From positions 1 to 64,000 of the forward strand of contig NZ_JNKR01000004.1 of the NCBI RefSeq assembly GCF_000702905.1: a stretch of DNA of 64,000 bases. Reading direction: 5' to 3'. Shown here piece by piece: positions 24,110-49,980 of this stretch. The notes under the pieces were generated by a model. The model saw only the letters and a program-made list of their open reading frames with translations. It was not told the DNA's origin and did no database searches. The stretch is from Mitsuokella jalaludinii DSM 13811. GTDB lineage: Bacteria > Bacillota > Negativicutes > Selenomonadales > Selenomonadaceae. Numbering within the stretch: position 1 is the first letter of the stretch; every line of letters starts with the position of its first letter. The position numbers were made by a program, and so were the translations under genes.

Positions 24110-24865
24110 ATGATTGAATTCAAAGACGTGTGCATGCGCTTCGACGATAAGGAAGCGCTCAAGCACATCAGCCTGACGATACAGGACGGCGAGACGCTCG
24201 CCGTCATCGGCGGCTCCGGCTCTGGCAAGAGCACATTCCTGCGCCTGCTCATCGGCCTCATCAAGCCGACAAGTGGCCAGATCCTCATCGACGGGCAGAA
24301 CATCGTGCCGATGAGCGAGGCGGAACTCAACAAGGTACGTCTCAAGATGGGCATGGTCTTCCAGTATTCGGCGCTCTTCGACTCGATGACCGTCGGTGAG
24401 AACGTCGCCTTCGGCCTGCGCGAGCACACGAAGCTCAGCGACGCGGACATCAAAGAGATCGTCCGCGAGAAGCTGCACCTCGTCGGGCTCGACGGCGTCG
24501 AGAACATGATGCCGAACGAACTCTCGGGCGGCATGAAGAAGCGCGTGAGCCTCGCGCGGGCCATCGCGGTCGAGCCCTCGATCATCTGCTACGATGAGCC
24601 GAGCTCAGGCCTCGACCCGCTGATGACCGAGAAGATCGACGAGCTCATCATCAACACACAGAAGGCTCTTTCGGTGACGAGCATTGTCGTCACGCACGAC
24701 ATGGCCAGCGCCTGCCGCATCTCGGACCGCATTGCGATGATCTACGAGGGCGAGCTCATCGCCATCGACACAGTCGAGCGTTTCAAGAAGATACAGGATG
24801 CGCGCGTGCAGGCATTCTTCCGCACGCTGCGCACCGTCAAGACCGAAAAGGAGGATAAAATATGA
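24110..24865 (+). CDS. mlaF: MlaF-family ABC transporter ATPase
   Basis: Cytoplasmic ATPase driving lipid transfer through MlaE. In 251 residues the Walker A is GGSGSGKS (34-41), the signature LSGGMKKRV, Walker B IICYDEPSSGLDP and a switch histidine in VVTHDM; LSGGM and the DEPSSGLDP form are typical of MlaF/Ttg2A. It overlaps mlaD by four bases, so ATPase and lipid-binding subunit are translationally coupled. Order E-F-D, without mlaB or mlaC, is as expected for diderm Firmicutes. Confidence 0.93.
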   Translation: MIEFKDVCMRFDDKEALKHISLTIQDGETLAVIGGSGSGKSTFLRLLIGLIKPTSGQILIDGQNIVPMSEAELNKVRLKMGMVFQYSALFDSMTVGENVAFGLREHTKLSDADIKEIVREKLHLVGLDGVENMMPNELSGGMKKRVSLARAIAVEPSIICYDEPSSGLDPLMTEKIDELIINTQKALSVTSIVVTHDMASACRISDRIAMIYEGELIAIDTVERFKKIQDARVQAFFRTLRTVKTEKEDKI

Positions 24866-26148
24866 CGACAGAGGCAAAAGTAGGCGCGTTCACCGTTGTG
24901 GGTGTCGTGCTCTTCGTGGCGGTGGCCATGCTGCTCTCCGGCGTTTCCCTGTCGGGACATAAGGGCTATACGCTCTACGCGGGCTTCAAGCAGGTCATCG
25001 GCGTCGAGCCGCAGTCGGTCGTGCGCCTCTCTGGCGTGCCGGTCGGCAAGGTCAAGAGCATCCGCAACGACGGCGGCGGCGTGACTGTCTCCCTCGACAT
25101 CGACGGGAATGCCAAGATTCCGAAGGGCTCTGCCGTCACAGTCGCCTCGGCGGGTGTCATGGGTGAGAAGTTCATCAACATCCTGCCGAGCAAGGACCAG
25201 GGCATCTACCTCGGCGACGGCGACTACCTGATTGGCCAGGAGGAAGAGGGGCTCGATTCCCTGATGGATAAGGCGGGCGGCGTGCTGGACCAGGTCCAAG
25301 CACTGCTCGACTCGATGAACCAGGTCATGGGCAATCCGGACTTCCAGAAGAACTTCCTGCAGATGGCCGTCAACATACGCGACATGACGGCGCACATGGA
25401 CGGCCTCGTCGCGGCGATGGAGCAGACGATGCGCGAGAATCAGGGCAACATCACGGGCATGCTCTCGAATCTCAATGCGGCATCTGCCGGCCTCAACCGC
25501 ACGATGAACCAGGTCGAGGCGATGATGACGAATCTCGCCACGGTCGGCGCTGACCCGCAGACGGCGGAGAATTTGCGCCTGACGCTCGCGAACATCAAGG
25601 ACACGAGCGACCGCATCGCGCACATCGCCGAGAATATGGACGGCGCCGTCGGCGACCCGCAGACGGCTGAGGACATCAAGACGACGATCCGCAATGCGCG
25701 GCAGATGTCCGAGAAAGCAGGAAATATGATGGGCAAGCTCGAAGATATCAAAGTCAAGCCATCGGCCGACCTGCTCTACAGCGGGGCGAAGGATGACTGG
25801 CAGGCGAACTTCAACGTGGATCTGGGGCCAGAGACGGGAAATTTTCTGCGGGCCGGACTCGATGACATCGGGGACGGCAACCGCGGGAACTTCGAAGTAG
25901 GCCGCCGCTCGGAGCGCTATGCCGTGCGCGGCGGCGTCATCAACGGCGATGTCGGAGTCGGCCTCGACGCCTATGCCGGCAAGCGCTTCGTCTTCTCGGT
26001 CGACGCCATGGACCCGAATGACCCGTCGCTGCGCCTCGGTGCGCAGTACGAGCTCAATGACGCCGGCACCTGGCTCATGGGCCAGTGGAATGATGTCAAC
26101 GACAGCGACAAGCGCGCCGCCTACGTCGGCCTGCGCCAGTCGTTCTGA
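24862..26148 (+). CDS. mlaD: MlaD-family MCE protein with C-terminal beta-rich domain
   Basis: 428 residues: one membrane helix (about 8-28), an MCE domain (about 34-115) that forms a hexameric lipid ring, a long helical/coiled-coil segment (about 125-300) with a repeated TVGADPQTAEN / AVGDPQTAED motif, then about 120 residues of alternating beta strands ending in phenylalanine (YVGLRQSF). The last part looks like an outer-membrane strand set, so the protein could span the periplasm. MlaD-barrel fusions of this kind have been described in Veillonella as a transenvelope bridge; I recognise the same plan here from architecture, not from a database search. Confidence 0.88.
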   Translation: MTTEAKVGAFTVVGVVLFVAVAMLLSGVSLSGHKGYTLYAGFKQVIGVEPQSVVRLSGVPVGKVKSIRNDGGGVTVSLDIDGNAKIPKGSAVTVASAGVMGEKFINILPSKDQGIYLGDGDYLIGQEEEGLDSLMDKAGGVLDQVQALLDSMNQVMGNPDFQKNFLQMAVNIRDMTAHMDGLVAAMEQTMRENQGNITGMLSNLNAASAGLNRTMNQVEAMMTNLATVGADPQTAENLRLTLANIKDTSDRIAHIAENMDGAVGDPQTAEDIKTTIRNARQMSEKAGNMMGKLEDIKVKPSADLLYSGAKDDWQANFNVDLGPETGNFLRAGLDDIGDGNRGNFEVGRRSERYAVRGGVINGDVGVGLDAYAGKRFVFSVDAMDPNDPSLRLGAQYELNDAGTWLMGQWNDVNDSDKRAAYVGLRQSF

Positions 26149-27828: not shown

Positions 27829-27907
27829 GCCTCGGACCAAAGTCCATACATCAATTCCATAGCAAGAAGTCGCAAGAGTTTCGGAAGTGAATTTTGGGGA
27901 GATTGTC

Positions 27908-30900
27908 ATGAAACGGAAAACCATCGGGATAGGTGTCGGCGTGCTCATGGGCGTGCTGATGCTGGTACTGGGCGGCATCTGGTATTACATACAGACCAGT
28001 GCGTTCATGGACAAGGTAGAGAGCACGGCTGCCACTGCTGCCAGTGAGGCGCTCGGCGTGCCCGTCTCCGTCGGCTCCATCAAGGTGAATTCGCTTCATG
28101 ATCTCGAGATCCATGACCTTGCCATCTATGATAAGCAGGCGGAATGCATCGCCCAGGCCGACACGGCCCGGGTGGAGCTGCGCCTGCTTTCTGCATATCG
28201 CGACCCCGCGCACGCCGTCCAGTCGGTCACGCTCTCACATGTCAAGGCCAGCCTCGTCCAGCGTGAGGACGGCACTTGGAATGTCGAGGACATCGAGACG
28301 AAGAGTTCGGGCGAGGGCTCGTTCTTCGGCACGGTCAAGGTGGAGGACGGCGAGGCAACGGTCACAGCGCAGGGCCGCGAGGTCACAGCCAGCGCCATCG
28401 AGGGCTCGCTTGACTTCTCGGATTACCCCGTGCTGAAGCTCTCAGCCAAGGCGAACTGCCTCGGTTCTTCTGTAGAAGTCTCGGGCACCTACCGCAAGGA
28501 GCGCCAGATCTTCAACGCGGAGCTCTCGGGGCTCGACGTCATGAACGTCCTGCCGCTGCTGCCGGACGGCACGCTGCCGGACGGCATCGAGGTCCTCGGC
28601 GGCACGGTGACGAAGGCCAAGGTCGCGGGCCAGTACATGGGCAGCCAGCTCTCCTTCTCGGGGCAGGCTGAGTACGAGGGCGGCTCCGTCAAGGTCAAGG
28701 AGACGCAGGTCGACGACATCCACGGCTTTATTTCCTTCACGGATGCGGAGGCGCTGTTCTCTGCCGATGCAGAGGCGGCCGGCCAGCAGGCCCATGTCAA
28801 CGGCAAGGTCCGCTACGACACGGGGGCGCCGTATCTCGACCTTCACGTCGCTTCGGATTCCTTTGATCCTTCAAAGGTCCTCAAGGACATCCCCTACGAG
28901 GGCGCGGCAGCGGTCAAGGCGCATGTCACGGGCACGGCGGCTGACCCTGTCGTCGACGGCACGGTCCGTGTCGCTTCCGGCACGGCGGCGGGCATCCCGT
29001 TCGCGAATGCGCGCGCGCACGTCCGCTACGAGGACGACCGCGTCTCGCTTCAGGATGTTGCGCTCAATGCCTTTGGCGGCACGGCGCGCGGCGAGGGCGT
29101 CTTCTCGCCGGCAGACCTCACGTACACGGCACACCTCGCGGCCAGTGACATCGATGTGCAGCAGGCAGCTGCCTACGTCCCGGAGCTCGCGGACCTCACG
29201 GGCCGCATCTCCTGCAACATGGGCATCTCCGGCAAGGGCTCGGACACGAGCGATTTGCAGGCGTACGGCAGTGCGGAGCTGAAGAATGGCTCCTACAAGG
29301 ACCTGCCCATTGAGAGCCTCGCGGCCTCGTTCTTCGCGCAGGGCAAGGACATCACGATAGACTACGCGAGCCTCAATCTGCCGCACCGCTCGACTCTCGG
29401 CATCGAGGGCAAGGTGAAGGATGGCAGCAGTCTCGACCTCGCGTTCTACGGCGGCCATGTCGACCTCTCGCTCGTGCGGACATTGATCCCTGAGGCCGAT
29501 GTCACGGGCTTCGGCGATTTCGAGGGCACGGTACAGGGCGACATCACAGATCCGGCCGTGAACTTCAAGTTCACGGCGATGAACGGCAGCCTCTTCAAGC
29601 AGCCGTACGACAGCCTGAAGTTCAACGCCGGCGGCAGCCTCGACGGCGTGACGATTGAGGAGTTCTCGCTCGTCAAGGATGGCAAGCAGACCTGGTACGT
29701 CGACGGCTCCGTCGGCCTGACGGGCGAGCGGCGCATCGACATGCGCATCGACACGGTCGGCGCGCGCATGGAGGACATCGCGGCCTTTGCTTTCCCCGAC
29801 CAGCCGATCACAGGCAACGTCGACAATACGATCAAGATCACGGGCACGCTCGACCACCCGAATGCCGTCGGCTACATCCACTTCTACCGCGGCAGCTACA
29901 ACGGTATCCTGCTCTCGGGCATGGACGGCGACTACTTCATGGAGGACGGCTTCACGCGCCTGCAGGACTTCCACGTCTTCTCACCGATGGTCGACATGGA
30001 CCTCAACGGCACGGTCGACCGCAACTGGAACCTCGACATGGTCGCGAGCGTCCACGAGATCAACATGGAGCGCTTTGCAAACAAGTTCCCGTACCCGGTC
30101 AGCGGCAAGGGCACCTTCGCCGGCGAGATCGGCGGCACACTGATGGCCCCGACGTTCCACGGCATCCTGACGTCTCCCTCCATCACGCTCAACGACCAGA
30201 CGATCACGGACATCCGCGGCATGGTCGATTACGAAGACAGCGTCGTCAGCGTCAGTCAGTTCGGCTTCCGCCAGGGCGGCGGCAGCTATCAGGCGGCGCT
30301 CTCCATCAACGTCGACACGCACGACGCGGATGGCACCATCAAGGTCCAGGACGGCGACATCAATGCCATCACGGCAATCGGCAACTTCAAGAACGACATC
30401 GTCACCGGCAAGCTCAGCAGCGACATCCAGGTCGGCGGCACATACGACAACCCGGAGCTCACCGTCATCGGCCGGCTGGACGCCGGCAAGATCTCTGGCT
30501 ATGATGTCCACGATGTCGATATCAACCTCCACCTCCTGGACCACGTCATCTACATCGACAAGCTCATGGGCCAGCAGGGCACGGACGGCAGCTTCGAAGC
30601 GGGCGGCACGGTGACGATCGGCGGCCCGATTGCCGCACACTTCTCGGCGCAGAAACTCGCGCTCGGCATGTTCACGAAGTCGGCCGGCCTCGAGCGCAAG
30701 GTGCACGGCACGGCCAACATCGAGGCCGCGTTTGGCGGCACGACGGGCAATCCGTCTGCCGATGTCACGATCGCGGCCAACAACGGCGGCTTCCAGGGCT
30801 CGACCTTTGATGCGCTGGATGGTGAGTTCCACCTCAAGAATGGCCTCGTCGATGTCAAGGACTTTTCGGTGGAAAAGTCCATCAACGGCAAGGATTACAT

Positions 30901-32239
30901 GGCTTCGGCCAAGGGCATCGTGCCTTTAAAGGCGCTTTTTGCCAATCGGGAAGAAGAGCTCAATGACTACGAGCGCATCAAGCTCACAGTCAGCCTCGAC
31001 CAGGCCGACCTCTCCATCCTGCCGTTTGTCTCCGACCAGATTGACTGGGCGCTCGGCCCGACGAAGGGCAAGCTCGAGATCACGGGTACGCCGGCGCACC
31101 CGCTCGTCAAGGGCAGCGTCTCGCTGTCGGATGGTGCGGTCAAGTTCAAGCCGCTCACTGTGCCCGTCACGGCCATGGCGGCCCAGGTCGATTTTAATGG
31201 CGACACCATGACAGTCCGCGATTTTTCTGGTAAAATGGGCGAAGGTACGTATGCGGGGCAGGGCACGCTCAAGATGAACGGACTGACACCTGCTTCGTAC
31301 GATTTCTCGCTGACGGCGGACAAGCTCGACATCGAGAGTGACTTCTTCAAGGGGCCTCTGAGCGGTCAGCTGCGCGTCAACAACGACAAGTTCTTTGGCT
31401 TGGAACTGCCGAAGATCTCGGGTCAGATCGACCTTGCGGACTGCACAATCTCTGTGCCGGCCATCCCCGACAGCGATGGCGAGCTGCCGGACATCATCCT
31501 CGACGCTGACGTCAATGTCGGCGACAGGGTCCATGCCTACAGCTCGTACCTCTACGACATGTACCTGACAGGGAATGTCCACTTCGGCGGCACGACGCGC
31601 CATCCGAAGACGTCGGGCTCGGTGTCGGTCAAGCGCGGCGGCACGATCAACTACCTCAAGACGGAGTTCAATGTCCGTGAGGGCACGGCCTACTTCAACC
31701 AGGTCGATTCGTTCCTGCCGAGCATCACGTTCCTGGCGGACACGCGCCTGACGCAGGCCAAGGTATTCCTCTCCATCACGGGCCCGCTCGACAACATGAC
31801 GTTTACGCTGAAGTCGACGCCGGAGATGAGCCAGTCGGAGATCATCCGACTGCTGACACTGCGCGACGCCTACAAGGCCGGACAGGCCAACCTCGATGCC
31901 GGCGACCTCCTGATTGTCGGCCTGCAGATGAGCTTCCTGTCGGAGGTCGAGGACGTCATGCGCAACATGCTCTGGCTTGACCGCTTCACGATTGCGCGCG
32001 GCAGCGGCTCTGCCTTTGACACGCACGACGAGGAGTCGAACAAGGCCATCGATGTCTATCACGTCGAGATGGGCAAGTACATCTCAGACAAGGTCATGTT
32101 CAAGTACACGCAGCAGATCGGCGGCGACGACACGCACCGCTTCGGCCTGCAGTACGACATGAACGACCGCTTCGGACTGTCGCTGGAGAAGGAAGCTCAG
32201 AGGTTCATTGTGGGCCTCGAAGCCCGCATCCATTTCTGA
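27908..32239 (+). CDS. tamB: TamB-family translocation and assembly protein (AsmA-like, DUF490)
   Basis: 1443 residues: an N-terminal membrane anchor (about 5-28), a very long run of repeated beta-strand motifs that form the hydrophobic groove of bridge-like lipid transfer proteins, and a C-terminal DUF490 region with the family signature near VKRGGTINYLKTEFNVREG and a final strand ending in F (VGLEARIHF). It should span from inner to outer membrane and carry phospholipid, or help insert outer-membrane proteins. No TamA is next to it; BamA follows two genes later and may be its partner. ATG at 27908 follows TTTTGGGGAG. Confidence 0.93.
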   Translation: MKRKTIGIGVGVLMGVLMLVLGGIWYYIQTSAFMDKVESTAATAASEALGVPVSVGSIKVNSLHDLEIHDLAIYDKQAECIAQADTARVELRLLSAYRDPAHAVQSVTLSHVKASLVQREDGTWNVEDIETKSSGEGSFFGTVKVEDGEATVTAQGREVTASAIEGSLDFSDYPVLKLSAKANCLGSSVEVSGTYRKERQIFNAELSGLDVMNVLPLLPDGTLPDGIEVLGGTVTKAKVAGQYMGSQLSFSGQAEYEGGSVKVKETQVDDIHGFISFTDAEALFSADAEAAGQQAHVNGKVRYDTGAPYLDLHVASDSFDPSKVLKDIPYEGAAAVKAHVTGTAADPVVDGTVRVASGTAAGIPFANARAHVRYEDDRVSLQDVALNAFGGTARGEGVFSPADLTYTAHLAASDIDVQQAAAYVPELADLTGRISCNMGISGKGSDTSDLQAYGSAELKNGSYKDLPIESLAASFFAQGKDITIDYASLNLPHRSTLGIEGKVKDGSSLDLAFYGGHVDLSLVRTLIPEADVTGFGDFEGTVQGDITDPAVNFKFTAMNGSLFKQPYDSLKFNAGGSLDGVTIEEFSLVKDGKQTWYVDGSVGLTGERRIDMRIDTVGARMEDIAAFAFPDQPITGNVDNTIKITGTLDHPNAVGYIHFYRGSYNGILLSGMDGDYFMEDGFTRLQDFHVFSPMVDMDLNGTVDRNWNLDMVASVHEINMERFANKFPYPVSGKGTFAGEIGGTLMAPTFHGILTSPSITLNDQTITDIRGMVDYEDSVVSVSQFGFRQGGGSYQAALSINVDTHDADGTIKVQDGDINAITAIGNFKNDIVTGKLSSDIQVGGTYDNPELTVIGRLDAGKISGYDVHDVDINLHLLDHVIYIDKLMGQQGTDGSFEAGGTVTIGGPIAAHFSAQKLALGMFTKSAGLERKVHGTANIEAAFGGTTGNPSADVTIAANNGGFQGSTFDALDGEFHLKNGLVDVKDFSVEKSINGKDYMASAKGIVPLKALFANREEELNDYERIKLTVSLDQADLSILPFVSDQIDWALGPTKGKLEITGTPAHPLVKGSVSLSDGAVKFKPLTVPVTAMAAQVDFNGDTMTVRDFSGKMGEGTYAGQGTLKMNGLTPASYDFSLTADKLDIESDFFKGPLSGQLRVNNDKFFGLELPKISGQIDLADCTISVPAIPDSDGELPDIILDADVNVGDRVHAYSSYLYDMYLTGNVHFGGTTRHPKTSGSVSVKRGGTINYLKTEFNVREGTAYFNQVDSFLPSITFLADTRLTQAKVFLSITGPLDNMTFTLKSTPEMSQSEIIRLLTLRDAYKAGQANLDAGDLLIVGLQMSFLSEVEDVMRNMLWLDRFTIARGSGSAFDTHDEESNKAIDVYHVEMGKYISDKVMFKYTQQIGGDDTHRFGLQYDMNDRFGLSLEKEAQRFIVGLEARIHF

Positions 32240-32287
32240 TAGCAGTCCTCTGAGCAATGATCGCAGCAATGAGAGGAGGTGAGCCGC

Positions 32288-32914
32288 ATGCAGCTCAGTG
32301 AGTACATGAAGGAACTGCGCAAGGTCAAGACACTCGATCGCGCGCAGGAAGCAAAGCTCTGGGCCGCGTTCAAGGAACGCGGCGACGAAGAGGCGCGCCA
32401 GCGGCTCATCGAATCGTATCAGCCGCTCGTCTTCAAGCAGGCGGCGCCATTTGCGCAGCTCGACTGCGTGCTCGACCTCATCCAGGAGGGCACGGTTGGC
32501 CTCATCGAGGCCGCAGAACGCTACGACCACACGCGCGGAGTAGCCTTCAGCCTGTTTGCCGTGCACCGCATCCGCGGCCGCATGATGGATTTCCTGCGGC
32601 GCGAGGGACAGGTCGACGTCGCCTGCCTAGAGGAGAATCTCGAGGGCGGCAGCCTCAAGGAGAACCTCGTCGACACGGCGGCGTCGGTGCCGGAGCAGGC
32701 GGAGAGCCACGAGCTCGCGCGCCATCTCCACCAGGCGATGGCGCGGCTGCCGGACAAGGAGCGGGCTGTGCTCGAGGGCATGTACCTCTGCCGCGAGGAC
32801 GCAGCGGGCATGGCCGATGCCCTGCACGTCAGCTCCTCGCACATCTACCGCCTGCAGAAGACGGGCATCCGCCGCATCCGCGGCATGCTCTCGCGTTTCA
32901 TGCATTACTGGTGA
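32288..32914 (+). CDS. Sigma-70 family RNA polymerase sigma factor (group 3-like)
   Basis: 208 residues. Region 2 is clear: ESYQPLVFKQAAPF, LDLIQEGTVGLIEAAERYD and FSLFAVHRIRGRMMDFLRRE, which contact core polymerase and the -10. Region 4 is LPDKERAVLEGMYL followed by a helix-turn-helix (DALHVSSSHIYRLQKTG) for the -35. A short region 3 separates them, so it resembles FliA/SigF-type group 3 factors more than ECF factors. Start at 32288 follows GAGAGGAGG. Its place between tamB and bamA suggests control of envelope genes. No other sigma or anti-sigma family domain is evident nearby. Confidence 0.9.
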   Translation: MQLSEYMKELRKVKTLDRAQEAKLWAAFKERGDEEARQRLIESYQPLVFKQAAPFAQLDCVLDLIQEGTVGLIEAAERYDHTRGVAFSLFAVHRIRGRMMDFLRREGQVDVACLEENLEGGSLKENLVDTAASVPEQAESHELARHLHQAMARLPDKERAVLEGMYLCREDAAGMADALHVSSSHIYRLQKTGIRRIRGMLSRFMHYW

Positions 32915-33068
32915 AAGGCGAGCAATTGAGTGAAAATGGCCAGAAAACACTGGAAAACAGCAGATGGTCGCATGGCATCTGCGCATATCGCGCGATACGG
33001 CATGCCGATACGGAGTGACCGCCTCGGATTATAGGAATAAGTCTTTGAAATCGGGCAGGGGGTGTGTC

Positions 33069-33623
33069 ATGAAGGAACGGAATCAGAAACAGCGCCGTCA
33101 CATCCGGGCGGCAAGGCAGTGGCTCGGGGAGGCGGAGCACTCACTCGCGGAGAACCACAGAGTCCGCGGTGAGCTCAAGGTCATGTTGGCCAAGGCAGAA
33201 CTGGCCCGGGTGGAAGGCACGCCGGGCCATCGCTTTGTCAAGAAGTGGTCCATGCGCATCCTGCCGGCACTTGCGGCGATCTTCCTCGCGGGCGGCGGCT
33301 ATGCGCTCTGGCAGGCGCAGCTGCCGCACAATGCAGCGGTGCCTGCCCCGGTGGAGACGGAGGCGCCTGAGCCTTCGCCCGCCCTGCCCGCAGAGACTGC
33401 CGACGAGCCGCCGCTGGCCCCAATCGAGATCCCCGAGCAGGCACAGCCGGCGGCAGCGCCCGCTCAGGCTGCTCCGGCGCCTTCGCCTGAGCCGGTACCT
33501 GCGCAGGCGGCAGCGCCCTCGGAGGCGCAGCCGGCTGCGCCTCCGCGAGAGTCCGCACCGCGCGTCCCCGATGACGGGATGCAGAAATTGATGCAGACCG
33601 CAGGCAAGGCGCTGCGGAAATGA
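33069..33623 (+). CDS. Single-pass membrane protein with proline/alanine-rich periplasmic region
   Basis: I do not recognise a family. The 184-residue protein has a strongly basic, helical cytoplasmic N-terminus (1-60), one membrane helix (about 62-80, ILPALAAIFLAGGGYALW), about 90 residues rich in P, A and E that would be extended in the periplasm, and a short C-terminal helix (GMQKLMQTAGKALRK). Proline-rich stalks recall TonB, but no TonB C-terminal domain is present. It directly follows the sigma factor, so a role as a membrane-bound sigma partner is conceivable; anchoring of periplasmic machinery is another option. ATG at 33069 follows AGGGGGTG. Confidence 0.75.
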   Translation: MKERNQKQRRHIRAARQWLGEAEHSLAENHRVRGELKVMLAKAELARVEGTPGHRFVKKWSMRILPALAAIFLAGGGYALWQAQLPHNAAVPAPVETEAPEPSPALPAETADEPPLAPIEIPEQAQPAAAPAQAAPAPSPEPVPAQAAAPSEAQPAAPPRESAPRVPDDGMQKLMQTAGKALRK

Positions 33624-33671: not shown

Positions 33672-35645
33672 TTGAAGAAACAGAACTACAGATCCCTCGC
33701 TTACGCTGTGGCAATTGCCGTCAGCTGTGCGGCTGTGCCGGGCACGTCCTGGGCAGCTGAGGCGCCTGCTGCAAGTGCGCAGCCCACGTCTTCTTCCGCG
33801 GCTCCGGCAGTTCCGGAAGCTGCCAATGTCAAGGCGGATGCCGCAGCTGCTCCGGCAGAGGAAAAGGCCGCTGAGACGAAAGATACTGCCGCTGACCATT
33901 CGGCTGCCGCACAGGCGGATGCCGTTGCGACGAGCACGGTGGACGAGCGCACGCAGAACTGGGCCAAGGTGCGCCCGCAGGAGACGGCCATCGCGGACAG
34001 CATGAAGAAGTACGAGGGGCAGACTGTCGTCGAGACGGTGTTTGACGGCACTTCTTCCCTGACGGAGGGCACGGCGAAGGCCGCCATCTCGATGAAGGCC
34101 GGTGACATGTTCACCGTCAAGGGCCTCGATGCCGACCGCGACAAGATCTACAACACGGGCTACTTCTACGACATCTACCCGAGCTTCGAGAAGGTGCCGG
34201 AGGGCGTCGTCGTCACGTACCACGTGCTGGAGAACCCGATCTTGAAAGGCGTCAACCTCAGCGGCAACACGGTCGAGAGCACAGAGACGCTCCAGGGGCT
34301 CATCACCATGAAGACGGGCGAGATCCTCAACAGCCGCGAGCTCAACAAGGATGTCATGGCCATCCAGGAGCAGTACCGCCGCGACGGCTACATCCTCGCG
34401 AAGATCACGGACATGAACATCGACAAGAACGGCATCTTGAACCTCAAGGTCAACGAGGGCATCCTCGAGGGCTACAAGGTCAAGGGCAACACGAAGACGA
34501 AGGAGCGCGTCATCCTGCGCGAGATGCGCCAGAAGCCGGGCGAGCCGTTCAACTCGAAGCTCGCGCGCCGCAGCATGCAGCGCGTCTACAACCTCGGCTT
34601 CTTCGAGGATGTCAACATCAAGATGAATCCGGGCGTCGACCCGAATGCTGTCGTCATGGAGCTCGATGTCACGGAGAAGCGCACGGGCTCGTTCGGCATC
34701 GGTGCCGGCTACTCGAGCGAGGACGGCGTCCTCGGCATGGTCTCGATCGGCGACACGAACTTCCGCGGCACGGGCGATGCGATCAGCCTGACGTATGAGA
34801 AGAGCGGCGACGACACGGATGCGCACGGCTACACCTTCTCCTACCGCCGCCCGTGGCTCGACAGCAAGGAGACGGTCGGCACGTTCCGCATCTACAACCG
34901 CACGTACGAGTACGACGATTACGACACGGACGGCGACCTCAAGGAGACGTACATGCGCAAGTATACCGGCGGAGAGCTGACGTTTGGCCGCCCTGTCACG
35001 GAGTACACGACGAACTACGTGACGCTGCGCAACCGCAAGGACTCGTATGTGCGCCATGTCGATGACGGCAATATGGGCGACCGCAGCCATGATACGAAGT
35101 GGCTCGACGACAACTTCGGCACGACGCGCAGCATCACGCTCGAGCACGTCACGGATACGCGCGACAATGTCTACAACCCGATGAGCGGCAGCCGCGTGAG
35201 CTTCTCGAGCGAGTTCGCCGGCTTTGGCGGCGACTTCGACTTCCAGAAGTACACGTTCGACGGCCAGCACTACATCCGCGCCGGCCGCTCGCAGGTCTTC
35301 GCGCTGCGCGGCCGCTACGGCGTTGGCACGGGCGACATCTCGGAGTTCAACCAGTACCGTATCGGCGGCCAGGGCTCGCTGCGCGGCTACCGTGAGGACC
35401 AGTTCCGCGGCGACCGCGAGTTCCTCGGCACGATCGAGTACCGCTTCCCCGTCGTGAAGAAGGTGCAGGGCGCCATCTTCACGGATTGGGGCGGTGCCTG
35501 GGACAGCGGCCTGACGCCCGATGACCTGCACGGCAGCATCGGTGTCGGCATCTCGCTGACGACGCCGATCGGTCCGCTGCGCTTCGACTACGGCTGGGGC
35601 GATGACGGCGGCCGCGTCCACTTCAGCGTCGGCAGCTCGTTCTGA
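33672..35645 (+). CDS. bamA: Outer-membrane protein assembly factor BamA
   Basis: Inserts beta-barrel proteins into the outer membrane. In 657 residues: a signal peptide (cleavage near A28), an Ala/Pro/Glu-rich linker (about 29-95), three POTRA domains (about 115-190, 191-265, 266-342; proteobacterial BamA has five), and a 16-strand barrel domain with IGGQGSLRGYREDQF, the conserved RGF/Y loop, ending GSSF with the C-terminal phenylalanine. The TTG at 33672 is the start, after AGGAGG. It is flanked by genes for the unassigned outer-membrane protein and Skp-like chaperones. Confidence 0.95.
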   Translation: MKKQNYRSLAYAVAIAVSCAAVPGTSWAAEAPAASAQPTSSSAAPAVPEAANVKADAAAAPAEEKAAETKDTAADHSAAAQADAVATSTVDERTQNWAKVRPQETAIADSMKKYEGQTVVETVFDGTSSLTEGTAKAAISMKAGDMFTVKGLDADRDKIYNTGYFYDIYPSFEKVPEGVVVTYHVLENPILKGVNLSGNTVESTETLQGLITMKTGEILNSRELNKDVMAIQEQYRRDGYILAKITDMNIDKNGILNLKVNEGILEGYKVKGNTKTKERVILREMRQKPGEPFNSKLARRSMQRVYNLGFFEDVNIKMNPGVDPNAVVMELDVTEKRTGSFGIGAGYSSEDGVLGMVSIGDTNFRGTGDAISLTYEKSGDDTDAHGYTFSYRRPWLDSKETVGTFRIYNRTYEYDDYDTDGDLKETYMRKYTGGELTFGRPVTEYTTNYVTLRNRKDSYVRHVDDGNMGDRSHDTKWLDDNFGTTRSITLEHVTDTRDNVYNPMSGSRVSFSSEFAGFGGDFDFQKYTFDGQHYIRAGRSQVFALRGRYGVGTGDISEFNQYRIGGQGSLRGYREDQFRGDREFLGTIEYRFPVVKKVQGAIFTDWGGAWDSGLTPDDLHGSIGVGISLTTPIGPLRFDYGWGDDGGRVHFSVGSSF

Positions 35646-35691: not shown

Positions 35692-37014
35692 TTGACGATA
35701 CAGCTTGGGCGGGGAGCCGTCGGGCAGGTATTCCTGGCCTGCCTCCTATCACTCGCCGCTATCGGCGTCTTTGCCTGCTCTGCGGCGCAGGCCGCCGGGC
35801 GGGTCGAGGCAGTGACGGCTCATGTCACTGCACCTGACGGCCTGCCGCCGCTCGTGCAGCAGCGCATGGAGACGAGCGTGCAGGTCATCTCTGAGCAGCT
35901 GTTGCTCGGCGATGACCTGCACGCCGCAGATGCTGCAGCGAAGAGCGAGATTATCCGCCAGGTCTTCGACAAGGTCCTTGTCGGCTATACTGTGCGCGAT
36001 GTCAGTCTCCAGCTCGGCGATACGGCCGAGGTCACGGTCGAGCTCTCGCCGTGGGCCGACCAGATCCGCACGATCTCGGTCGAGACGCATGTCGAGGGCA
36101 TGCCGCCTGAGGTGGAGCGCCTCGTGCGCGAGGACCTCGCGGATGTCAGCGCCGTCTTCTCGGATGCGCTCTACGGCCTGCCGGTCGCGGCGACCGACTG
36201 GACGAACGGCGTCCTCAAGCACCATCTCGAAGCTTATCTCGCGGAGCACCTGCCGGAGTTCCGCGGCGACTTCGAGGTCGAGACGGATGGCAGCGCGGCG
36301 GAAGTCAGCCTGACGGTCTACCCGCGCCTGCCCGTCGTCCGCACGGCGGACCTCTCGATGCGCTCGAGCACCATTCCGAACCTCACGCTGCTCAACCACC
36401 GCGAGCTCATGCAGGAGCAGGCCGATATGCTCGTCGGGGTTCCCGTCGCCTTTGTCGCGCGCCATCAGCACGACTTCGAGCACCTCTTCTCGGAGCGCCT
36501 CGACGCGCAGCGCGACTTCCGGGCGCTTCGCATGAAGACGACCGTGACGATCGCGCCGCAAGAGCGCATGACGGTCATGAGCCGCTCGGACTCCTCGCGC
36601 TACCGCGCGCGGCTGACGGGCTGGGTCGACATGGGGCGCAAGGAGCGCAAGTATGAGCGCGAGGTGGACAGCCTGCGCATGAGGCTCCACACCGGGTGCA
36701 TGATGACGGCGCGCGACGAGCTCTTCGCGCAGGTCGACTTCATGCCGCAGAAGGTCGACTGGGGCTGGGCGATGGGCTATAACCACCGCATCGGCATGGG
36801 CACGCGGCCAGAGATCCGCTACGACATGCGCGAGAAGCGCTTCGTGTTCGGCGCCAGGCAGGCGCTCGCGCCGCGCTGGCAGCTCCGCTACGAATACCGC
36901 TTCACCGACCATCTCGGCGAGGCAGGGCTCCTCTATCAGGTCCACGATTTCCTCGGGGTCGAGTACGTCCTCGACAAGACGCAGGGCTGGCTCCGCCTCA
37001 TCGGGAATTTCTGA
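35692..37014 (+). CDS. Predicted outer-membrane protein of unknown function, 440 residues
   Basis: I do not recognise a named family. A signal peptide (cleavage near A34, AAQA-AG) precedes two alpha/beta units (about 40-150 and 150-235) whose pattern resembles POTRA-like folds, then from about 275 a run of alternating amphipathic strands ending LRLIGNF with a terminal phenylalanine, as in outer-membrane barrels of some 8-12 strands. It sits between bamA and three skp-like genes, so a part in barrel assembly or lipid handling is likely. Start is TTG at 35692 after AGAAGGG. Its own transcription ends near the hairpin at 37021-37049. Confidence 0.8.
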   Translation: MTIQLGRGAVGQVFLACLLSLAAIGVFACSAAQAAGRVEAVTAHVTAPDGLPPLVQQRMETSVQVISEQLLLGDDLHAADAAAKSEIIRQVFDKVLVGYTVRDVSLQLGDTAEVTVELSPWADQIRTISVETHVEGMPPEVERLVREDLADVSAVFSDALYGLPVAATDWTNGVLKHHLEAYLAEHLPEFRGDFEVETDGSAAEVSLTVYPRLPVVRTADLSMRSSTIPNLTLLNHRELMQEQADMLVGVPVAFVARHQHDFEHLFSERLDAQRDFRALRMKTTVTIAPQERMTVMSRSDSSRYRARLTGWVDMGRKERKYEREVDSLRMRLHTGCMMTARDELFAQVDFMPQKVDWGWAMGYNHRIGMGTRPEIRYDMREKRFVFGARQALAPRWQLRYEYRFTDHLGEAGLLYQVHDFLGVEYVLDKTQGWLRLIGNF

Positions 37015-37101: not shown

Positions 37102-37566
37102 ATGGTTACATTACAGAAAAAACAGGTCAAGATCATCAGTGTCCTCATCGCACTCGTCTTTGTCGGTTCTGTTGTCGCCCTCGCCTTGACGCAGTCTGGC
37201 TCGGGTATCGCAAGCGCAGCAAGCTCGAATGTCGGCGTCGTCGACTACCGCCAGATCGCACAGCAGAGCTCGCAGCTCCAGGATATCCAGTCCCAGATGC
37301 AGAAAGAAGTCCAGGACGCCCAGAAGGAGTTTGAGGAGAAGTCCGCAAACATGAGCGACCAGGAGAAGAACGACTACTATCAGCAGACGCAGCAGCGCCT
37401 TGCCCAGAAGAATCAGGAACTCATGGAGCCGTTCCAGAAGAGCATCGAGGATTCCGTCAAGAGCGTAGCAGAGGCTAAGGGCCTGTCTGTCGTCCTCGAG
37501 AAGAGCTCGGTTGTCTACGGCGGCCAGGATATCACGCAGGATGTCATCAAAAAGCTCAGCAAGTAA
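37102..37566 (+). CDS. Skp/OmpH-family periplasmic chaperone, paralogue 1
   Basis: 154 residues. An N-terminal hydrophobic segment (about 10-32) is either an uncleaved anchor or a signal peptide ending near SAAS. The mature part starts NVGVVDYRQIAQQS, the OmpH first strand and helix, then a charged coiled coil (about 60-125) and a closing strand with DITQDVIKKL, the OmpH end. Such proteins form trimeric jellyfish-shaped chaperones that carry unfolded barrel proteins to BamA. It is the normal Skp size. A strong promoter directly precedes it. Confidence 0.88.
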   Translation: MVTLQKKQVKIISVLIALVFVGSVVALALTQSGSGIASAASSNVGVVDYRQIAQQSSQLQDIQSQMQKEVQDAQKEFEEKSANMSDQEKNDYYQQTQQRLAQKNQELMEPFQKSIEDSVKSVAEAKGLSVVLEKSSVVYGGQDITQDVIKKLSK

Positions 37567-37643: not shown

Positions 37644-38807
37644 TTGGACAATCCCGATAGAACGCCAGAGAAGCCGGGCGCTGCTCCTGGAGGGAAGAGC
37701 CTCTGGCAGAAGAAGCGCAAGGAGATACTCATGGGCAGCGCCATCGCGCTCGGCCTCGTCTTCCTCGGGGCCTGGGGCATCCGCGCGCTGATGCCGGGGC
37801 ATGAACCCGTCAAACAGACGGCGGCCGCGAGCATCGGCCTCGTCGACATGCAGAAGGTCATGGAGGCACACCCCGACTACGAGAAGCTTGAGACGCTCCA
37901 GAAGGAGTACAAGAGCCTGGAGCTCTCGCTCAAGGACACAGAGAAGTTGCCCGAGATGAAGGTGGAGCCGCCGACTGTCGATGCAAAGCCGTTCGACGAT
38001 TCCGTCTGGCAGAAGAATGCCCAGACCGTCATCGGCGGCCGCTCGGAACTCGAGCGCGAGGCCAAGAAGGTCGAGAAGGCGTACCGCGAGGCCCACGAGG
38101 CCGAGTATGAGAGCCGCCGCAAGGCTGTCGACGAGGATTACCAGAACGCGATCCTCAACCTCAACATCAAGATCGACAACCAGAAGGCCATGCATCACCC
38201 TTGGACGAAGCAGCAGGAGCTCGATGAGGAGAAGGCGGGCTGGGAGAACCAGCGCGAGCTTCTCAAGGAAGAGCGCGGCATGCGCCAGCAGGAGCTCGCC
38301 AAGGCCTGGGAGCGCGAGGTGAACGCATACGTGCAGTCCGTCATGGGGCCGAAGCTCGCCAAGTGGCACGAGCAGGCCAAGACGGCGCTCGACCAGCAGA
38401 AGTCGGAATCTGTGCGCAAGCAGTCGGAAGTGCAGCAGCGCGACACCGCGGCGATGCAGCAGGAGATGCAGATGACGGCGGCCGAGCGGCTCCAGCAGCG
38501 CGCTCAGATCAAGGAGATGATGGCGCAGAAGGCCGAGGAGATCCAGGCACTCGACACGCACATCCGCAACGACATTGCGGGCAAGGCGGCCAAGATTGCC
38601 ATCCTGCATCACTTCACGATGGTCCTCGCGAATCCCGCCGAGGACCTCGCGTTCAAGCTGCCCATGGACCTGCCCGCGAGTATGAAGCCGGAGCGCTTCA
38701 TGCCTGTTGTCGGCAGTGACACCGAGGATGTCACGGACGAGCTCGTCAGCGAAGTCAGCACGTTAGAGAGCAAAGACGATGCGGACGGTTCGTCTGAGGA
38801 TTCATAG
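37644..38807 (+). CDS. Large Skp/OmpH-like coiled-coil protein, membrane-anchored, paralogue 2
   Basis: 387 residues, more than twice the usual Skp. A basic N-terminus and a membrane helix (about 29-50, no clear cleavage site) precede the OmpH-like opening IGLVDMQKVMEAHPDYEKL; a very long charged coiled coil (about 80-310) follows; the end shows FTMVLANPAEDLAF and SDTEDVTDELV, matching the closing beta strand and helix of OmpH. It probably forms a long periplasmic coiled-coil chaperone or spacer fixed to the inner membrane. The start is a TTG at 37644 with AAGGAGG upstream. The acidic tail (DDADGSSEDS) is unusual. Confidence 0.82.
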   Translation: MDNPDRTPEKPGAAPGGKSLWQKKRKEILMGSAIALGLVFLGAWGIRALMPGHEPVKQTAAASIGLVDMQKVMEAHPDYEKLETLQKEYKSLELSLKDTEKLPEMKVEPPTVDAKPFDDSVWQKNAQTVIGGRSELEREAKKVEKAYREAHEAEYESRRKAVDEDYQNAILNLNIKIDNQKAMHHPWTKQQELDEEKAGWENQRELLKEERGMRQQELAKAWEREVNAYVQSVMGPKLAKWHEQAKTALDQQKSESVRKQSEVQQRDTAAMQQEMQMTAAERLQQRAQIKEMMAQKAEEIQALDTHIRNDIAGKAAKIAILHHFTMVLANPAEDLAFKLPMDLPASMKPERFMPVVGSDTEDVTDELVSEVSTLESKDDADGSSEDS

Positions 38808-38858: not shown

Positions 38859-39296
38859 ATGAAATTACGTAAGAAAACCGTAGGTCTTCTGGCAGCCGCC
38901 TTTGCTGCGACGATGCTCATGAGTGGCTGCGGCCAGGTCAAGATCGGCTACATCGAAGGTTCCCGCGTCATGCAGGAAGCGCCGCAGGTCAAGTCTCTCG
39001 TCGAAGAAGGCAACCAGAAGATCAACGAGGCCCGCGAGGAAGCACAGAAGTCGCTGCAGGACAACCCGGACATGAGCCAGGAGGACGCGCAGAAGGCACA
39101 GGCCGATGCACAGCGCAAGATGGCCAGCCTGAACCAGTCGTACCAGATGCAGCTGCAGCAGAAGGTCAGCGCGGCCCTGCAGGACATCGCGAAGGAGAAA
39201 AAGCTCGATGTCGTCGTGGACAGCGAGAAGGAGCAGCCGACGGCTCTGATGGGCTGTGTCGATGTGACGGATGACGTCATTGCCAAGCTGCAGTAA
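38859..39296 (+). CDS. Skp/OmpH-family lipoprotein, paralogue 3
   Basis: 145 residues. The signal peptide ends in a lipobox (LMSGC, C24 by count) so the protein is lipid-anchored. KIGYIEGSRVMQEAPQVKSL is the OmpH opening, a charged helical hairpin (about 45-110) follows, and DVTDDVIAKLQ closes the fold as in paralogue 1. A lipidated Skp is unusual; sorting to inner or outer membrane cannot be read in this lineage. It lies 14 bp before lpxD, the gene order skp-lpxD-fabZ-lpxA being common in proteobacteria too. Confidence 0.87.
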   Translation: MKLRKKTVGLLAAAFAATMLMSGCGQVKIGYIEGSRVMQEAPQVKSLVEEGNQKINEAREEAQKSLQDNPDMSQEDAQKAQADAQRKMASLNQSYQMQLQQKVSAALQDIAKEKKLDVVVDSEKEQPTALMGCVDVTDDVIAKLQ

Positions 39297-47493: not shown

Positions 47494-49980
47494 ATGCAAC
47501 TACTCTATAATATAGCGGCCATCATCATCGTGATCCTGATCATCCCGATGTTCATGGTCCGCTCGGTGCGTGAGAAAGGCTTTGTCGAACGCATCCGGCA
47601 GAGCCTGGGCTTCTTCCCCGAACACGCTCTCGACAAGGTGGAGAAGAAGGACTGCATCTGGGTTCATGCGGCCTCTGTCGGCGAGATCGTCGCGACGAGT
47701 CCGCTCATCAAGGAGTTCCGCAAGGAGTTCCCGAAGAGCCCCATCCTCGTCTCTGTCGTCACGACGAGCGGTTACGAGATGGCCAACCGCATCATCAAGG
47801 ATGCTGATGCGATCATCTACTTCCCGCTCGACCTGCCGTGGCTGGCCGGCCACGTGCTGCGGCGCATCCGCCCGCGCGTCTTCCTGCCGGTCGAGACGGA
47901 GCTCTGGCCGAACTTCCTGCGCACGGCGCGCAAGATCCACGTGCCGGTCATGATGGTCAACGGCCGCATCAGTGACAAGAGCGTCAAGCAGTACAAGCAC
48001 CTGCACAGCCTGCTGCGCAACATGATCGGGACGGTCAAGCTCTTCGCGATGCAGTCGCCTATCGATGCGGAGTACATCATGCGCCTCGGCGCACCGCAGG
48101 AGCTCGTGACTGTCACGGGCAACACGAAGTTCGACCAGACGTACACCGATGTCAGTCCCGAGGAGAAGCAGAAGATCATCGAGGAAATGGGCCTTTCCAA
48201 GAACGATGGCATCTTCCTCGCCGGCTCGACGCACCGCGGCGAGGAGGAGGCCGTGCTGCAGGCATTCAAGGCCGTGCGCGAGACGCATCCGCACGCACGC
48301 CTCGTCATCGCGCCGCGCGAGCTCCTGCGCACGATGGAGGTCGTCCACCTCTGCCGCAAGGCAGGCTTTTCGGTCACGACGCGCACGAAGCTCCAGAACG
48401 AAGCGCCGCAGGATGAGGACATCGTCATCCTCGACACGATCGGTGAGCTCGGCAAGGTCTACAGCATCGGCGATGTCGTCTTCGTCGGCGGCAGCCTCGT
48501 GCCGCACGGCGGCCACAACATCCTCGAGCCGGCCGCGCACGGCAAAGCCATCATCGTCGGCTCGCACATGTTCAACTTCAAGGACACCTACGCGCTCTTC
48601 AAGAACCGCGACGCCTGCCTGACCGTGAAGAACGGCGAGGAACTCGCGAAGCAGGTCACGCGCCTCTTCGACGAGCCGGAGCACCGCCACCGCATGGAGG
48701 AAGAGACGCGCGCCATCGTGCGCGAGAACAAGGGCGCTTCGCGCAAGTCGGCCATCCTGCTCCACCAGATGCTCGAGAGCTATGAGAGCAGTCCCGAGAA
48801 CCGCCATCACGTGCGCTCTACCCAGAAGATCACGAACTTCCAGACCTATTTCATCGACCTTGTCCATAGTAAAGAGGTGGACGGGCTCTTCCCGCACCTC
48901 ATCATGGGCATCCTCTACATCTTCTCGCTGATCTACGGCCTGCTCGTCAACATCAAGCTGGCCGGCTACAAGTACGGCATCTTCCAGAAACAGAAGCTCG
49001 ACTGCTTCGTCATCAGCCTCGGCAACGTGACGGTCGGCGGCACGGGCAAGACGCCAACGGCGCAGCGCCTCGCGCGTGACATCCGCGACATGGGCTACCG
49101 CGTCGTCATCCTCAACCGCGGCTACCGCGCCAAATGGCACGGGGAGGTCGGCATCGTCTCCGACGGCAAGCGCCTGCACATGGATGCGGCGGAGGCCGGC
49201 GATGAGGCGTACATGCTCGCCAAGCACCTGCCGGAGGTCCCCGTGCTCATCGGCGCGGAGCGCGCCAAGACGGGCCGCTACGCGATGGAGCACTTCGGGG
49301 CGGAGGTAGCCATCCTCGACGACGGCTACCAGCATTGGCAACTCGAGCGCGATCTCGACATCCTGCTCGTCGATGCCGTCAACGTCTTCGGCAACGGCTA
49401 CATCCTGCCGCGCGGCACCCTGCGCGAGCCGATCTCGCACATCAGCCGTGCCGACATCTGCCTGATGACGAAGGTCGACCAGGCGGCGGCCGGCTCCTGC
49501 GACTACATCCGCGAGACGGTGCACCGCTACAATCCGGAGGCGCGCATCGTCGAGAGCATCCATCAGCCGCGCTGCTTCATCCCGCTGACGGAGTGGTACG
49601 TCAACATCGCGAGCCAAGGCATCGACATCGCGCAGATGCGCGGCAAGCGCATCATGGCCGTCTCGGCCATCGGCAACCCCGCCTCCTTCGAGCAGACGCT
49701 TTCCGACCTCGGTGCGGTGATCATCGAGAGCCTGCGCTATCCGGACCATCACGACTACGCGATGTCCGAGATGACGGACATCTTCCAGCAGGCCGAAAAT
49801 GCCGGCGCGGAGGCCATCGTCATCACGGAGAAGGATGCCGTCAAGATCCCGGCGGATGTGGCCCGCGAGAAGTGGTCCATCCCGATCTACGTCATCTGCG
49901 TGGAAGTCAACTTCCAGAAGGGCAGCGAAGGCCTCGCGGATCTCTTGAAGAAGCGCCTGGCCGAGCGCCTTGGCCACTGA
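47494..49980 (+). CDS. Bifunctional Kdo transferase (WaaA) / tetraacyldisaccharide 4'-kinase (LpxK) fusion
   Basis: An 828-residue single frame with two lipid A enzymes. Residues 1 to about 425 are WaaA/KdtA: membrane anchor (2-22), WVHAASVGEI, PVETELWPNFL, GNTKFDQ, VFVGGSLVPHGGHN. From about 450 a second membrane segment (VDGLFPHLIMGILYIF) begins LpxK, with its P-loop GNVTVGGTGKT (510-520), LNRGYRAK, GDEAYMLAKHLP and ILDDGYQHW. LpxK phosphorylates lipid A disaccharide before WaaA adds Kdo, so the enzyme order in the chain is opposite to the reaction order. No stop or frameshift lies between them. Confidence 0.93.
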   Translation: MQLLYNIAAIIIVILIIPMFMVRSVREKGFVERIRQSLGFFPEHALDKVEKKDCIWVHAASVGEIVATSPLIKEFRKEFPKSPILVSVVTTSGYEMANRIIKDADAIIYFPLDLPWLAGHVLRRIRPRVFLPVETELWPNFLRTARKIHVPVMMVNGRISDKSVKQYKHLHSLLRNMIGTVKLFAMQSPIDAEYIMRLGAPQELVTVTGNTKFDQTYTDVSPEEKQKIIEEMGLSKNDGIFLAGSTHRGEEEAVLQAFKAVRETHPHARLVIAPRELLRTMEVVHLCRKAGFSVTTRTKLQNEAPQDEDIVILDTIGELGKVYSIGDVVFVGGSLVPHGGHNILEPAAHGKAIIVGSHMFNFKDTYALFKNRDACLTVKNGEELAKQVTRLFDEPEHRHRMEEETRAIVRENKGASRKSAILLHQMLESYESSPENRHHVRSTQKITNFQTYFIDLVHSKEVDGLFPHLIMGILYIFSLIYGLLVNIKLAGYKYGIFQKQKLDCFVISLGNVTVGGTGKTPTAQRLARDIRDMGYRVVILNRGYRAKWHGEVGIVSDGKRLHMDAAEAGDEAYMLAKHLPEVPVLIGAERAKTGRYAMEHFGAEVAILDDGYQHWQLERDLDILLVDAVNVFGNGYILPRGTLREPISHISRADICLMTKVDQAAAGSCDYIRETVHRYNPEARIVESIHQPRCFIPLTEWYVNIASQGIDIAQMRGKRIMAVSAIGNPASFEQTLSDLGAVIIESLRYPDHHDYAMSEMTDIFQQAENAGAEAIVITEKDAVKIPADVAREKWSIPIYVICVEVNFQKGSEGLADLLKKRLAERLGH

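Follow-up and report, generated by a model that had tools for sequence, protein, structure and literature searches.

Next to bamA in the window, a 64,000-nucleotide stretch of the Mitsuokella jalaludinii DSM 13811 genome, lies a gene encoding a secreted protein (hereafter X) that is gained and lost in step with two genes on the far side of bamA, encoding a sigma factor (hereafter sigma) and a single-pass membrane protein (hereafter small). This module of sigma factor, membrane protein and putative outer-membrane POTRA-like protein, whose members are lost together, is the best-supported novelty of the locus. The chances appear evenly balanced that, in a signalling module linked to BamA and composed of sigma, small and X, the last serves as the outer-membrane arm.

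The coordinates of the genes and domains considered are collected in Table 1. Translation of X starts at a TTG codon preceded by the ribosome-binding site aagggatg, 46 bp 3′ of bamA, and the gene lies 87 bp 5′ of the first ompH/skp gene. It is conserved as a protein in 36 of 41 genomes of relatives, with identities of ca. 30–83%, and hence is not a chance reading frame. Residues R58, G98, W170, P211, P229 and P251 are invariant in 50 aligned relatives reaching down to 18% identity, and the final residue is Phe or Leu in all 31 members of a second alignment. Judged from its sequence, X is a secreted non-lipoprotein, given that the family carries one N-terminal signal sequence with no hydrophobic segment beyond residue 60, and that no conserved Cys, at a lipobox or elsewhere, is found in the 31 aligned members. 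Searches with X alone and with the X family against Pfam, NCBIfam and PDB sequences returned only noise; a ubiquitin match (E 0.077) was judged to be due to chance, and viral contigs contained no relatives. The preliminary description of this DNA, a secreted 440-residue protein encoded between bamA and skp that is neither TamA, LptD nor a Bam lipoprotein, was thus borne out by the 440 codons with their signal sequence, by a placement that is kept across classes and by the lack of any Pfam or NCBIfam assignment or conserved lipobox Cys.

Table 1. Features of the tamB–bamA–ompH region, in window coordinates
Feature	Position	Strand	Basis or remark
mlaD, with C-terminal barrel region	24862..26148	+	
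tamB	27887..32239	+	
sigma-70-type factor, regions 2 and 4 (sigma)	32279..32914	+	PF04542, PF04545; co-occurs with X
single-pass membrane protein, putative anti-sigma/transmitter (small)	32964..33623	+	
bamA	33672..35645	+	
X, secreted protein, predicted POTRA-like / minibarrel	35692..37014	+	440 aa; sequence, homologues, predicted fold
X signal peptide, residues ca. 1–35	35692..35796	+	cleavage site judged from sequence
X POTRA-like unit 1, residues 37–121	35800..36054	+	AlphaFold2 model, Foldseek, structure alignment
X POTRA-like unit 2, residues 124–213	36061..36330	+	model; best single-domain POTRA match
X POTRA-like unit 3, residues 216–300	36337..36591	+	model; contains conserved G-[LVI]-P-V motif 249–252
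X predicted ten-strand minibarrel domain, residues 302–440	36595..37011	+	model of domain folded alone, fold search, alignment
X segment similar to final 60 TamB residues, residues 380–439	36829..37008	+	profile comparison
three ompH/skp-type genes	37102–37566, 37644–38807, 38859–39296	+	

Wherever X was present and the stretch complete, the gene order was tamB–sigma–small–bamA–X–ompH genes–lpxD, also outside Negativicutes, and the order from tamB to ompH was retained down to X identities of 18–32%. In some genomes X partly overlaps bamA, and in some small begins immediately 3′ of sigma. Unnamed ‘hypothetical proteins’ have been marked in the tamB-bamA-ompH locus (PMC5007114). The middle ompH gene of the window is a long variant (387 aa) that only marginally matches the OmpH profile (E 0.037), and a long variant occupies the same position in many genomes. 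Further along the window, positions 47494–49980 hold a single 828-aa ORF that reads as an apparent fusion of WaaA (Kdo transferase) and LpxK (lipid A kinase).

Orthologues of X were found in 277 of 380 Negativicutes genomes. In a phylum-wide sample of 398 genomes, bamA was present in 101 and X in 24, of which 13 belonged to classes other than Negativicutes. Several Negativicutes, including a Veillonella-like genome, and most bamA-bearing sampled genomes of other classes keep bamA while X is absent. The published V. parvula locus tags (TamB 0526, BamA 0527, Skp 0528–0530; PMC5491611) agree with the X-less arrangement. The genome of the window also has, outside the window, a second and distant Omp85-type match (G000:C7:46733-48001, 25% identity, E 1e-11), and at L091 (G019) and L096-L097 (G282) bamA, or a gene distantly similar to it, was seen in a different genomic context, the two G282 genes being neighbours of large secreted proteins of the haemagglutinin type, an arrangement like that of two-partner secretion.

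The joint occurrence of X and sigma was assessed in the same 380 Negativicutes genomes, scoring sigma as present at E ≤ 1e-35. X was found in 277 genomes and sigma in 272: 270 had both, 7 only X, 2 only sigma and 101 neither (Fisher p 8e-81, a value that ignores kinship). When the count was restricted to the 234 best genomes, these figures became 188, 1, 0 and 45, respectively, and the contig of the sole discordant genome (G489) extends only about 2.3 kb upstream of X and stops before the place of sigma. The contig of another ‘X only’ genome, G508, also ends too soon for the sigma gene, and the remaining discordant genomes are all incomplete or contaminated assemblies. In five X-less genomes (G009, G282, G032, G038 and G412), tamB, bamA and ompH abut and both sigma and small are missing too. 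Sigma and small were absent from the locus in 19 of 20 bamA-bearing, X-less genomes of other classes. Where X-less genomes gave matches to small, with E values near 1e-4, these were presumed to be false positives caused by Pro-rich sequence. In genome G052 (L139) sigma and small are located at bamA, an OmpH-like gene lies directly behind bamA and X is missing, indicating that X is not strictly needed for the sigma-small pair.

A bamA tree with 42 rows, on which sigma status was defined at the locus, requires at least 8 changes of X, and X and sigma are concordant in 7 of 7 independent pairs (sign test p 0.016). Since bamA is kept between sigma and small on one side and X on the other, a joint loss needs two separate deletions rather than one. 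A single deletion can therefore not explain the joint losses around a retained bamA, and a functional link between X and sigma is the simpler reading. The loss of X together with sigma and small points to a role in regulation or sensing.

The product of small has a conserved N-terminal part predicted to be cytoplasmic, one transmembrane segment oriented by the positive-inside rule, a linker rich in Pro and, at the C-terminus, the conserved motif MQKLxxxAGKxLR. Its topology fits that of a single-pass anti-sigma factor, and profiles recognised in it no anti-sigma, FecR or other known domain. Weak matches to GltJ, GspB, VirB10 and TrwE fell mostly over the transmembrane segment and the Pro-rich linker and were treated as compositional. 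Inspection by eye revealed no promoter common to sigma and small, and no target promoter of sigma was seen.

The fold of X was predicted with AlphaFold2 from a four-sequence alignment. The mean pLDDT of the models was 66 and 64, a moderate confidence to be read together with the four-sequence alignments, and in the model of X most values were 80–90 for residues 81 to 210. The model shows three beta-alpha-alpha-beta-beta units at residues 40–120, 127–211 and 218–about 300, followed by about ten C-terminal strands. Nearly all of the 50 Foldseek matches listed for this model were BamA, TamA, FhaC, Toc75 or other Omp85/POTRA entries; the best E value among the matches listed was 2.7e-5, and whole-chain TM scores were low. 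When aligned by VIA-align, residues 37–212 matched tandem BamA POTRAs with a Z of about 6 and an rmsd of 9–10 over 140–150 residues, and unit 2 alone matched single POTRAs at 3.0–3.7 Å over 75–83 residues; chance arrangements can also reach a Z of 6, and the POTRA assignment therefore draws on the consistency of the matches and on no single score. At the sequence level, hhalign gave no signal between X and the BamA POTRAs (0.2%). The repeats of X are described as POTRA-like by predicted fold only. Two such units had been proposed from the sequence; the model agrees with the type of fold and raises the count to three.

The strand-rich C-terminus of X comprises ca. 145 residues and ten predicted strands, far below the length of an Omp85 barrel. 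When the C-terminal 151 residues were folded alone, ten strands were again predicted, with pLDDT values mostly of 77–84 in the central part, and hydrophobic and polar residues alternate along the strands throughout the alignment. Fold matches of this domain included designed transmembrane barrels, OmpA, NspA, OprF and OmpW, along with small soluble barrels, nitrophorins among them; PRELID/START-type matches to the barrel region in the first X model were not among the matches listed for the domain folded alone. By hhalign, residues 296–440 matched the C-terminus of TamB with 76.5% probability (E 2e-5) and the C-terminal barrel of MlaD with 46.8% (E 2e-4); the BamA barrel gave 0.9% and the other gene families of the cluster no more than 1.8%. 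Null controls against TamB using reversed, shuffled and parity-preserving shuffled profiles reached a maximum of 2.9%. The C-termini of MlaD and TamB, each similar to X, show a weak profile similarity to one another (15%). These comparisons hint at a small outer-membrane strand module shared within the MlaD/TamB/X gene cluster. The MlaD barrel of V. parvula has been modelled with ten strands and fractionates with the outer membrane (PMC10665443), and in Borrelia the C-terminal strands of TamB have been modelled as completing the BamA barrel (PMC13382580). For X, the modelled count of ten strands favours a barrel on its own over one that completes the BamA barrel. The preliminary description had noted a strand-rich C-terminus ending in Phe, which holds as a predicted barrel-type region ending in Phe or Leu but shorter than that of Omp85 proteins; its suggestion of a reduced Omp85-like factor was not sustained, the domain being more similar to the C-termini of TamB and MlaD.

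Gene order, co-occurrence, joint gain and loss and predicted architecture are the observations from which we infer the outer-membrane location of X, its physical contacts and the direction and content of a signal. In such a scheme, the ten-strand minibarrel of X, presumably inserted by BamA, would hold the three POTRA-like domains. These domains would face the periplasm beside BamA and TamB and could read the state of outer-membrane protein assembly, X itself being a BamA client. A change in the assembly or occupancy of X might then alter its contact with the Pro-rich tail of small, by which sigma would be freed or held. Small would serve as inner-membrane transmitter or anti-sigma factor, and sigma as the cytoplasmic output. 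A more specific version, in which X, sigma and small form a dedicated, lipoprotein-free surveillance system for outer-membrane assembly in diderm Bacillota, with X as a BamA client that acts as a sentinel and signals BAM/TAM status to the cytoplasm through its POTRA-like domains, is put forward tentatively, the odds being rather against it.

X might instead be a structural or catalytic Bam accessory replacing the BamB-E that are missing in diderm Bacillota, with its POTRA-like domains extending the periplasmic ring of BamA and its barrel anchored beside it. The adjacency of X to bamA, with partial overlap in some genomes, and its predicted fold would suit such a role, as does the account given in recent reviews that BamA of Terrabacteria, which lack the Bam lipoproteins, works without known lipoprotein partners and that further factors may exist (PMC13067283, PMC11784454). 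However, X is absent from many bamA-bearing lineages, Veillonella among them, which makes a core Bam role unlikely, and its losses track sigma, which a pure assembly factor does not predict; this reading is considered unlikely overall. The earlier proposal of a new Bam accessory specific to Negativicutes accordingly keeps its strict linkage to bamA and a possible accessory role, but neither its restriction to Negativicutes, given the occurrences in other classes, nor, probably, a core function.

The alignment of the X C-terminus with the end of TamB raises the option of a TamB-like partner, whose C-terminal strands would complete or gate the BamA barrel and which would compete with TamB or substitute for it. 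The Borrelia model, and the observation that TamB DUF490 co-purifies with and binds BamA POTRAs (PMC11361582), are in agreement with this, but the domain of X is modelled as a separate barrel of ten strands and also resembles the barrel of MlaD, which is thought to stand alone, rendering this option improbable. We give equally little credit to the module serving an unrelated trait, such as motility, sporulation or a surface structure, and being merely located in the outer-membrane cluster. Retention is indeed patchy and sigma is distantly related to the FliA/WhiG/SigF group; by contrast, the place among tamB, bamA and skp does not change between classes, and Mitsuokella is a non-motile, non-sporing genus. 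For X itself, structure prediction and fold search yielded POTRA-like units and barrel strands, the Pfam, NCBIfam and PDB sequence searches returned no unrelated known family, and the neighbourhood survey, besides the kept bamA-X linkage, brought out sigma and small as co-occurring partners.

The function and regulation of BamA in Terrabacteria are raised as a question in recent reviews (PMC13067283, PMC11784454). In the passages of open-licence papers considered, neither X nor the sigma pair linked to it is described, and an earlier mention may exist elsewhere. X, sigma and small beside bamA constitute a candidate, testable by knock-out, for the missing accessory or stress-sensing layer of Terrabacteria. 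If confirmed, the module would use a new kind of receptor to signal from the outer membrane to the cytoplasm.

Compared with known systems, X shares with the BamA/Omp85 superfamily an N-terminal array of POTRA-like units, a C-terminal predicted outer-membrane barrel and the gene neighbourhood, but its barrel is ten-stranded and short, and no sequence similarity to the barrel or POTRAs of BamA is found. The Omp85 barrel profile PF01103 (about 16 strands) was unmatched in 31 of 31 members, the RG dipeptide of the RGF/RGD-type loop-6 motif is absent from residues 296–440 of the X in the window, and no POTRA profile matched X, whose predicted fold and Foldseek matches agree with POTRA; strictly defined, the Omp85 proteins do not include X. 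Like Bam lipoproteins BamB-E, X is a possible periplasmic partner of BamA, but it differs from them in lacking a lipid anchor and a profile match, and in its absence from many bamA-bearing genomes. The MlaD of diderm Bacillota carries a small C-terminal outer-membrane barrel of similar length and strand number and belongs to the same gene cluster; instead of an inner-membrane anchor and an MCE domain (PF02470, unmatched in X), X carries POTRA-like domains behind a signal peptide. With TamB, of the same cluster, the resemblance is limited to its final 60 residues (76% probability): the TamB profile PF04357 was unmatched and X lacks the inner-membrane anchor. In the FecA-FecR-FecI system, as in the module described here with X as the putative outer-membrane member, an outer-membrane protein, a single-pass membrane protein and a sigma factor with regions 2 and 4 are encoded together. 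Unlike that system, the X module lacks a FecR domain and a TonB-dependent receptor (the receptor profile with signalling domain was unmatched in X, whose predicted barrel has ten strands) and flanks bamA, and its signalling role is a proposed one. By its composition, the X module would thus be analogous to FecA-FecR-FecI signalling in its inferred function, rather than a member of that family.
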